Assembly: GCF_023343835.1 (NCBI RefSeq)
Contig: NC_064447.1
Coordinates: 12,677,501 to 12,741,500, forward strand
Length of the DNA: 64,000 nt
DNA from: Lagopus muta
Lineage: Eukaryota > Chordata > Aves > Galliformes > Phasianidae
Direction of reading: 5' to 3'
Shown here: piece by piece, positions 20,766 to 30,188 of the stretch
How the letters are laid out: each line of letters opens with the position of its first letter
How positions within the stretch are numbered: the first letter of the stretch is position 1
Translations under genes and position numbers: made by a program
The notes under the pieces: generated by a model
The model's database searches: none
The model's input: only the letters and a program-made list of their open reading frames with translations
Told to the model about the DNA's origin: nothing

Positions 20766-21391
20766 GGCAGGAGAAAGTTGCGTCCTTGTTTATAGCTCTG
20801 GGACTGCGCCCTGCAGGCAGCAGGAGCGGGGGCTCTGCTTCGCTTGCAGTCTGGAAGACGTTTGCCTGAGAAGTTTCTAAAATCGTATGTTATCAGTGGG
20901 AGGCAAACACTGACGGCATATTCCCTGCTGTCCTCCCTAGGCTGAAAGGTCTGACTCAGGGCTTTGGGCATGAGCAGAGGATGCTCAGAACAGAGGATGC
21001 TCCACACCTCACGCTCCCAGCACTGCGACTGCCCCAGTGGGTGGTTGGGGACTCACTTTTGCTTGCCAATCTTCTGGAAATGCCACAATCCATACATTCA
21101 GACCTGGGCAAAACTCTTTGCAGGAACAGTGCCACCACCCCAGACCCAGAGCATGTGGAGTTTGGTCTGGTGGTCCTTGGGGCTGCAGCAGAGCCTCATG
21201 GCTGCCTCTGTGCTGTAGTGGGGCTGGGCATGGGCAGCTCCAGACAAAGCCATCAGTGCCATAAGTTTGCAGAGCACATCTCAACCAATGCAGAAAGCTC
21301 TGCATCAGGCTCAGGGAAGCCTTGCATGAACTTCCTCTGGCCATTTCCCATGCACTCTTCATCTCTCTCCCCTCGCTGCAGCCCCAGGACA

Positions 21392-24300
21392 ATGAGGTCG
21401 TATCAGAAGTTGAGGACATCGGTGCCACAGCTGGTATTGAGCCAGGAGGAGGAGGAGGAGGAGAATTCAACCACCCCGACAGCTGCTGGCCGCAGCAAGC
21501 TGGCCCCATGGTGGGTGGGCAGTGGGCTGCTGATCACCGCCGTGCTGCTGAGCACCATCACCGTCTGGGTGCTGCGACAAGTATCCAGGGGCTGGCATGG
21601 CCCTGCACCACCTTCCCAATGCCACCTGGTCCCTGAGAGCCACCGCTATGACTGCTACCCCGAGAGGAGCGTGGTGGTGACCCAGGAGCTGTGCGAGAGC
21701 CGGGGGTGCTGCTTCATCGAGACCCTCCCTGCAGTGGGGGGCAAACGTGGGGTGCCCTGGTGCTTCTATCCGCCCAACTTCCCCAGCTACGTGGTGCAGA
21801 GCCTCAACCAGACGGCGCTGGGCATGACGGGGCTGCTGGTGCGCAGGGAGAAGGCCTATTACCCCAAGGACATCCAGGTGCTGAGGATGGACGTGGAGTT
21901 CCAGACGAACACACGGCTGCGCATCAAGGTGAGCGTGCCTCCAGCTCTCTTCCAGAGCTCTGCACTCTGTACCACGTCTGTAGGTGATGTCCCCTGCTCA
22001 GAGAGAGGCTGGCAGCTGCTTTGCTCCTGGCATGAACACGTGTCCTCAGTGAGCATCTCCAGCCCTCCTGTTTTGCTGGTGTTCATAGTGTCCTTTTTCC
22101 CCGTTGCAGATAACCGATGCAGCCAAGCCCCGGTATGAGGTGCCCCTGGAAGTTCCCCGAGTGATGAAGAGAGCAGAAAACCCCATCTACAGCCTGGAAT
22201 TCTCCCAGGATCCCTTTGGGGTGCTGCTGCGGCGCCAAGGGACAGGGACAGTGCTGTAAGAGCCCACCTTCTCTCTGTGTCCTTCCCTCAGTGGGATTCA
22301 GTTTGCCTCCCTGAGGGCTTTCCTTAGGGAAAAACACACCTACACATCTCAATCCATCAGTTATCATTGCTTTCATCCTTGCTGCAAACTCTGGTGCTCA
22401 CATGGGGACACAGCAGCAGGTGGCTTTCTGGCCATGCAGGACTGGGTGGGATCAGCACCTACTCCCAAACCAGCACAATACCCCAAATCCCCACCGGTGT
22501 CATGGAGCTGCTCAAAACTGTGTCTTGAGTGAGGCACAGCCCTGGGATGCGGGACCCCAGCGTATCACCAGGGATGGACCTGGAGGCTTGGGGAAAGGAC
22601 GAGCAAAGGGCCGCAGCTCTGCCTGCTTGGCCTTGCTTTTGGGGTTCTCCAGAGAGCTGTCTATGGTGTGGGAACTCCCCAGCAAGCGCTGGGTTCAGGC
22701 TTTTGGGGAAAAAAATACCAGTGGATTCGCTGTGCTGCTTCGGTCCTCTCCATGGCTTTGCCTGAGCTGAGCCACAGCGAGCTGCAGTGCTCAGCATAAG
22801 GCAGGGTGTCCCAGCACTCCCCCAGATCCTGTCCTGTCCTCCTCCCTCCCATTTTGGGCCCTGTGGTCTGTCTTTTCCTCAGGAGCTGCTTATCAGCAAG
22901 GGCAGACAGAGAACTCCCTGGCTGCATCGCCTCAGTGGTTAATTATAACCGGAGTGGAAACTGCCGGTGTCAAATGAATGGCTGTGTGGGGTTGGGCTGG
23001 CTGGGGTCAGGATGTGCCACCACCCAGACCCCAGTCTGCCCTAACAGGACTGGCAATGGGATGGGATGCACTGCTTTGCTGACATCGAGATGCTTCTAGA
23101 GGGAAGGGCACGTCGCTGTGAGGGGATTACCATCCCCTGGTGACCTTCTCTCCCGCTGTGTCACCCGGCAGGCTCAACACCACCGTGGCTCCCCTGATCT
23201 TCGCTGATCAGTTCCTGCAGATCTCCACCACGCTGCCCTCCAGGTTCCTGTATGGGTTGGGGGAGCACCGCAGCACGCTGCTGCACAGCCTCGACTGGAA
23301 CACCCTCACCCTCTGGGCCCGTGATGTGGCCCCCACGGTACCCCTGGGGCAGGGAGTGGTCATGGGGAGGATTTCAGTGCAATTGCAAAACGTGTGTCCT
23401 GATGGCCCTGAGCGCTTTCTGGTCCATGCAGCAGGTTGTGGTGTGGCTGCCCTGGGCACAGCTTAGCGGTGTCCAAGGGAGAAGCAGCTCCCGTGGGTTC
23501 CAGCTCCAAAACTGTCCTCACAACCCTGCCATGCCCTCCATGGGGTGATGGATGCTAGGCTGGGTGGTGGCCACTGATGTGACTTGGGAACATTGGTTAG
23601 CCTGAGTCTCATGGCTCTGAGCTGAGCTGCTCTACCCGGGAGCTGCTTTCTCACCAGGCAACCCCTGCTTGCAGGAATCCTTCAATCTGTACGGCGCTCA
23701 CCCCTTCTACCTGCTGATGGAGGAGGGCGGCGATGCCCACGGGGTTTTCCTCCTCAACAGCAATGCCATGGGTAGGTGTGTGGCGTTGGTTTGGGATCTT
23801 GGGGCAAGAGGAAGCCATAAAAGGGAAAAGATGTGGTCCGATGGCTCCGTTATTGAGCTGAGCCATCTGTTTCCTGGCTGAAGCGAGGCTCTTTAGCAAC
23901 TGCTGAGCAGTTTAACCGCACGCCCAGCTGCTGAATTGCTGTCGGAAAAGCGAGTCCTTCACATGCAGCTCTGTGCCCATTCCCCATCTGCCCAAAGCAG
24001 CCTTGCCCTGAGGCTGTCAGGGTGTGCGATTCCTGCCCAGATGGGGATGCTGCCTGTGCTGTCCCCAGCTGTCCCCAGCTGTGCCACCTGTGCCCTGCAG
24101 CACCTTCCTGCTAGTAGCCCCACAGGGTCCTGCTTTGCCAGGATGGCACTGGCGGTCACCTGTCCCCCCTCCAGTAGCCATCTGGGACCGTGCTGCTCAG
24201 AGCAGGGCTCCAGCTGTGCTCAGCTTCAATGCAGCTCTGCTTCTCAGTGTGAGTGTGGAGCAGAGCACGGGGAAATGCATCACCCAGCTGAGGTCTGAGG

Positions 24301-29981: not shown

Positions 29982-30182
29982 GCTGGGGGGCACAGGGCTG
30001 CCTTGCCATGACCTACTGTGCACGTTCCTGCTCCAGCCCTCAGGGCCAGGATGGTAACACAGGGGCTGTCATCTGTCATCACCCGCTGCTGCAGATGGGG
30101 GCAGGGGACGTGGGGATGGGGTGGGGCTCCATCTGTGTCATCAGTGTGAGGTCAGAGCTGTGCACCCATCGCCCCATCTGCA

Positions 30183-30188
30183 ATTAAA
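30183..30188 (+). terminator. ATTAAA polyadenylation signal of the GAA-like gene
   Basis: ATTAAA lies about 200 bases after the TGA stop and is followed by a GT-rich stretch (GGTGTCTGGTTGTCC). That is a normal layout for cleavage near 30205. Confidence 0.65.

Follow-up and report, generated by a model that had tools for sequence, protein, structure and literature searches.

Acid α-glucosidases in birds

Two acid α-glucosidase (GAA) genes have been described in quail (PMC6487185 and PMC12386088), and two GAA clusters are distinguished in birds in PMC6487185. According to PMC12386088, a 2025 study of Pompe-disease quails, it is GAA I that supplies the lysosomal activity, with an acid pH optimum, and its loss results in Pompe disease. 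The same paper gives this gene 19 exons, 932 residues and a record on NC_029529.1, and lists variant positions at T50 (exon 1), T182 and D214 (exon 2), H306 (exon 4), A366 (exon 6) and S648 (exon 13). According to PMC7766110, the quail enzyme has a mass of about 110 kDa as the precursor and of about 98 kDa once mature.

A narrow search of the literature, mostly of titles and abstract openings, found no paper in which the gene mutated in Pompe quails is called a paralogue of human GAA. A check of the main text of PMC12386088 for ortholog, synten, duplicat and chromosome found none of these words, and the main text of PMC6487185 likewise lacks ohnolog, outgroup and genome duplication. The gene described below is already known as quail GAA I, and both bird genes may well already be listed in gene databases; its kinship is of more interest than its existence. 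It was found in a stretch of 64,000 nucleotides of the ptarmigan Lagopus muta (NC_064447.1, positions 12,677,501 to 12,741,500), referred to as the window, and positions are those of the window unless a contig is named.

Structure and surroundings of the window gene

On the forward strand, between 21392 and 29981, 19 coding exons join in frame to 2796 nucleotides, equal to 931 codons and one terminal stop, and every one of the 18 introns is of the GT-AG type. A splice-aware alignment reproduced all exon borders except the stop codon, with the same protein as query and hence as a self-control. Coding exon 1 (21392–21928) encodes a 41-residue N-terminal tail, a hydrophobic anchor (residues 42–60) and the trefoil domain (residues 77–127). 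It is followed by exons 2 (22110–22255), 3 (23172–23337) and 4 (23675–23771), by exon 5 (24587–24706, 120 nt) and by exon 6 (24893–25011, 119 nt), which contains A365, the equivalent of quail A366. D401 is located on exon 7 (25080–25211). After exon 8 (25965–26075), exon 9 (26768–26881) stops inside the WIDMNE motif, directly ahead of the predicted nucleophile D515 on exon 10 (27152–27236). Exon 11 (27533–27650) precedes exon 12 (27929–28062), with R597 and the predicted acid/base D613, while exon 13 (28208–28359) carries H671 and S647, the equivalent of quail S648, and has a weak donor (GTCTTG). The coding region is completed by exons 14 (28554–28702), 15 (28796–28937), 16 (29120–29218), 17 (29368–29532), 18 (29601–29747) and 19 (29919–29981, including the stop codon).

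A piece of 5′ untranslated region (21382–21391, forward strand) extends from a splice acceptor to the ATG and implies an upstream non-coding exon. The poly-A signal ATTAAA occupies 30183–30188 on the same strand. An earlier, sequence-only reading had proposed an intact GAA-type gene of 19 exons and 931 codons, and the joined open frame bears this out. Its start at 21382 is the first base past the splice-acceptor AG, 10 bases 5′ of the ATG at 21392, and its end at 30188 is the final base of ATTAAA. Near the 5′ end of the gene, no CLEAR-like TCACGTGA with at most one mismatch was found, none occurring between 9656 and 34031; at the same tolerance, the window as a whole holds 10 matches versus 17.4 expected.

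The left neighbour, on the reverse strand (9735–10190), is a small-Maf bZIP gene that matches Pfam bZIP_Maf and is 89% identical to human MAFK. Exons of the TMEM184 family are present at the left edge of the window. The right neighbour, INTS1, was recognized by Pfam INTS1_RP2B-bd and by Integrator subunit 1 in the PDB; its ATG at 30651 (forward strand) is 463 bases past the poly-A signal of the window gene, in the same orientation. The location between MAFK and INTS1 that the sequence-only reading had assigned is thereby borne out by the Pfam and PDB matches and the MAFK identity of the flanking genes. Pfam gave no match for four fragments of the INTS1 and C21 regions (31826–32362 and 34724–35125 of the window, L012:6235–7287 and L014:8471–9160).

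Domains, catalytic site and predicted function

The trefoil and GH31 catalytic domains were identified in the window protein by PF00088, PF13802, PF01055 and PF21365, all above the cut-off. In a search against solved structures, the best full-length match to a single enzyme is human lysosomal α-glucosidase, with 1081 bits over query residues 72–930, and at this level of sequence similarity a chance resemblance to human GAA is excluded. One human MGAM-type chain outscores human GAA in sum, through three matching stretches of which the best reaches 826 bits.

Human GAA (PDB 5nn3, 9gsv) has the same trefoil and GH31 layout and the same catalytic residues. D401, D515, R597, D613 and H671 of the window protein each correspond to a human position minus three (D404, D518, R600, D616 and H674, the catalytic residues of the human enzyme), so that the constant offset claimed by the first reading is confirmed for all five. 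The substrate site, at the 16 human positions examined, is the same at 15, the exception being S647 in place of human L650. Over 851 positions the two proteins are 54.6% identical, and, of the 12 human cysteines that the alignment covers, 11 are conserved. In contrast to the human enzyme, the window protein has the N-terminal tail and hydrophobic anchor, is encoded in a different chromosome block and, in exon 16, is without a stretch of 17 human residues. The mammalian line has probably gained these residues, because neither bird gene has them. Only N233 of the seven human N-glycosylation sites, at the positions that we assume for them, is in exact register, with two others at most two residues off; the window protein has 10 sequons.

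The hydrophobic segment at residues 42–60 has a mean hydropathy of 1.97 and stands behind the 41-residue tail. As a single hydrophobic segment with such a tail, it suggests a type II membrane-anchored precursor. A YxxΦ sorting motif, YQKL, was noticed by eye at residues 4–7; it is distant from the membrane segment and of a common type, and it was given no weight.

The window enzyme would be a GH31 exo-α-glucosidase that travels through the secretory pathway to the lysosome, where glucose would be freed from glycogen at acid pH via double displacement, with D515 as the nucleophile and D613 as the acid/base. Because the catalytic site is retained, its action is likely the same as that of quail GAA I, most likely the exo-hydrolysis of glycogen inside the lysosome. 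Selection on the gene, as had been proposed by the first reading, receives indirect support from the quail, in which GAA I loss means disease and the reported substitutions are all synonymous (five of five). With window-gene codons standing in for the quail codons, the expected synonymous share is 0.24 per random change and 0.41 per C–T change, which gives chances of 0.0007 and 0.012, respectively, for such an outcome.

A second GAA gene and other GH31 loci

The whole genome (165 contigs, 1,026,658,476 bases) was scanned with the GH31 family profile, yielding 40 matches with all 45 candidates scored, and with the window protein, yielding 59 matches with 49 of 93 candidates scored. The scans placed GH31 loci on C18 (the contig of the window), C21, C9, C59, C70, C1 and C12. 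On C21 there is a compact GAA gene of 19 exons and 876 codons (C21:5483694–5488650) with SGSH directly downstream, an adjacency that we also take to hold for human GAA on 17q25. EIF4A3, presumably near GAA in human, was not found within the 60 kb searched beside the C21 gene, where SGSH is found instead. Core identity amounts to 75.8% between the C21 and human proteins, 59.0% between window and human, and 59.9% between window and C21. The window and C21 genes have equal exon lengths in 16 of 19 cases. Unlike the window gene, the C21 gene groups with human GAA, encodes 876 residues and has a short start that resembles a signal peptide by eye. Its last intron (L012, C21:5488520–5488591) has an apparent GC donor (CAG|GCGAGT), which makes it the one GC-AG intron of this gene.

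The sequence-only reading had envisaged a second, intron-bearing and old GAA copy. This is supported, as a conventional GAA exists separately on C21; the refuting outcome, a place within the normal GAA orthologue clade with no other copy in the genome, did not arise.

The remaining loci include two single-exon GH31 genes on C59 (8658049–8660086 and 8666933–8668970; L017:3049–5086 and L018:1933–3970), inverted and about 7 kb apart, which are 98.3% identical over 2039 bases and form a recent inverted duplicate or palindrome. We presume that this pair is MYORG, and C59 may be the Z chromosome. On C70 (147,982 bases; L019–L022), two GH31 domain clusters are 61–75% identical to the two domains (N and C) of the C12 SI-like gene; they belong to a further SI/MGAM-type gene, perhaps the bird MGAM on an unplaced piece. 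A GH31 gene at C1:15086564–15110028 (L023–L025) has about 45–50% core identity to the SI, MGAM and GAA rows and falls in no clear group.

Correspondence with quail GAA I

Each of the six variant positions of quail GAA I has its residue in the window gene at a single offset of −1 and in the same exons (1, 2, 2, 4, 6 and 13). When every offset between −120 and +120 was tried, the second-best fit of the window gene was three of six, and the best fit of the C21 gene was likewise three of six. Because all six fit at one offset in their published exons, the window gene is, on this correspondence, the avian GAA I that is mutated in Pompe-disease quails; by elimination, the C21 gene would be GAA II. 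The same comparison speaks strongly against the suggestion of the sequence-only reading that GAA II of the quail may reside at this locus.

The quail gene (AB000967.1; PMC12386088) thus shares with the window gene its 19 exons and the six residues with their exons, and the start codon agrees with the published numbering. The difference between 932 and 931 residues comes down to one codon ahead of residue 49. A GAG-rich run at 21448–21466 encodes six glutamates within the N-terminal tail, and a change of one unit in this run could perhaps explain the difference in length. Codon 365 of the window gene is GCG, and the published quail frameshift result would imply a different codon in quail.

Position of the gene in the GH31 tree

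A tree of 11 rows was built from the two bird GAA genes, human GAA, the N-domains of human MGAM and SI, and six other GH31 models from the ptarmigan genome. Human was the sole mammal, and all other rows were from the bird. The SI/MGAM-like and C9 gene models were rough, and their unreliable N-terminal parts were trimmed beforehand. The topology obtained is (window,(C21,human)), in which C21 and human are united with support of 97/100 in the 11-row tree and 100/99 in the 10-row tree. The trio of window, C21 and human genes has support of 84/90 with 11 rows and 100/100 once the long C9 row is removed. The branch of the window gene measures 0.38–0.39, compared with 0.15 for the C21 gene and 0.20 for human GAA.

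The AU test rejects the pairing of the window gene with the C21 gene (p = 2.2e-5, with a lnL loss of 49), with human GAA (p = 7.1e-6) and with the MGAM/SI N-domains (p = 1.6e-5); two other groups put to this test were already present in the tree. The window gene therefore groups with GAA rather than with MGAM/SI. The border of exons 5 and 6 divides as 120 + 119 nt in the window gene and C21 GAA, versus 113 + 126 nt in four of five SI/MGAM-like models (rough models, the fifth showing only the 126). From the topology and the AU rejections it follows, on these data, that the duplication predates the split of birds and humans.

Measured by its tree position and by the human 17q25 gene map, the window gene, which is neither the sister of human GAA nor in a 17q25-type neighbourhood, does not qualify as its orthologue. 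The C21 gene, sister to human GAA in the tree and with SGSH alongside, is by the same evidence the bird orthologue.

Paralogous blocks and the origin of the gene

Small-Maf genes are located on C18 at 12.687 Mb (in the window), on C21 at 5.066 Mb and on C1 at 50.173 Mb. They are accompanied by Fringe genes in all three places (C18 12.06–12.07 Mb, C21 4.97 Mb, C1 50.45–50.46 Mb), with weaker matches elsewhere. Fascin genes occur on C18 (11.10 Mb) and C21 (5.85 Mb) and not on C1, and TMEM184 genes on C18 (12.68 Mb), C1 (50.16 Mb) and C7 and not on C21. The two GAA genes (C18 12.699 Mb, C21 5.484 Mb) lie inside two of the three Maf/Fringe blocks. In the third, at 50 Mb of C1, there is no GH31 match, the matches on C1 being confined to the vicinity of 15.1 Mb in the GH31 scan and among the 49 of 93 candidates scored in the window-protein scan. 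The blocks thus match only in part, with TMEM184 absent from C21 and both Fascin and GAA absent from C1. As the marker families were picked by their human positions, this comparison is a directed test, neither blind nor random; we assume that human 7p22, 17q25 and 22q13 carry the same marker sets.

The pattern fits that expected of a two-round (2R) whole-genome duplication after which birds kept GAA in two blocks and humans kept it in one. The window gene, in the MAFK/LFNG block, would be an older paralogue and in all likelihood a 2R ohnologue, and the human GAA lineage would descend from the MAFG/RFNG-block copy, which here lies on C21. We know of no human counterpart of the window gene. Mammals would have lost this copy, and birds retain both. 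An origin by retroposition was rejected, as 18 introns are retained and 16 of 19 exon lengths are common to the C21 gene. The first reading had described the gene as a segmental duplicate and not a retrocopy; the latter half stands on the 18 introns, and given the shared blocks "segmental" is better replaced by probable whole-genome ohnologue.

Alternative explanations

Taken as a whole, it is highly probable that the window gene is the avian GAA I, an older paralogue non-orthologous to human GAA, likely a 2R ohnologue, and that it encodes a lysosomal enzyme. A local or segmental duplication before the bird–mammal split, rather than a whole-genome duplication, is unlikely: the tree requires just a pre-amniote date and the marker families are common to the blocks only in part, but two of these families match all three blocks within about 0.3–0.65 Mb, and GAA lies inside two of the blocks. 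A small duplication confined to birds or sauropsids, whose apparent depth would reflect fast change in the window copy, is very unlikely. The long branch of the window gene relative to the C21 and human genes would agree with it, as would the single gaa gene inferred for the bird ancestor in PMC6487185. Such an event is opposed by the AU rejection of the window–C21 pairing, with its large loss of likelihood, and matching Maf, Fringe and Fascin neighbours would not be expected from it.

Since two GAA-type loci are present, one of them must be GAA II, and the roles could be exchanged, with the window gene as GAA II and the C21 gene as GAA I. We consider this highly improbable, as all six GAA I residues and their exons fit the window gene and at most three fit the C21 gene, the window protein has 931 residues against the published 932 while the C21 protein has 876, and the GAA I record lies on NC_029529.1, by its accession numbering presumably quail chromosome 14. 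The GAA II assignment was set aside solely because the gene fits GAA I. A diverged brush-border enzyme of the sucrase-isomaltase/maltase-glucoamylase type with a single catalytic domain is equally improbable. The N-terminal domains of MGAM and SI share the trefoil and GH31 layout and an N-terminal anchor; the window protein has a hydrophobic anchor with no obvious cleavable signal and 52.6% core identity to the human MGAM N-domain. Nevertheless, the AU test rejects this grouping, the border of exons 5 and 6 is that of C21 GAA and differs from that of the SI/MGAM-like models, and PMC12386088 attributes lysosomal activity to quail GAA I. An assembly error or a pseudogene is scarcely credible; nothing in its favour was seen beyond the weak donor after exon 13. 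The frame is open across 19 exons, the catalytic residues are retained, the locus lies within a contig of 15.3 Mb (C18), and the same exon layout is given for quail GAA I on an independent assembly; a pseudogene was rejected on the open frame and the catalytic residues.

Implications

For the ancestor of birds, PMC6487185 infers just one gaa gene, which disagrees with the present tree. If the duplication is older than the split of birds and mammals, this ancestor had two gaa genes, and that inference merits revisiting. It is likely that birds and mammals use different ohnologues for the main lysosomal breakdown of glycogen, that the quail Pompe gene is the 2R paralogue that mammals lost, and that an intact GAA II fails to rescue the quail. 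If true, the gene knocked out in the classical avian model of Pompe disease would be non-orthologous, and the role of bird GAA II would perhaps be limited to certain tissues or directed to substrates other than glycogen. Should the window gene be an ohnologue, the quail strain of the first Pompe enzyme-replacement trials would have lost a paralogue, and the name "GAA" in birds may denote different genes. Why the true orthologue does not compensate would then become a clean question about the job of each copy.
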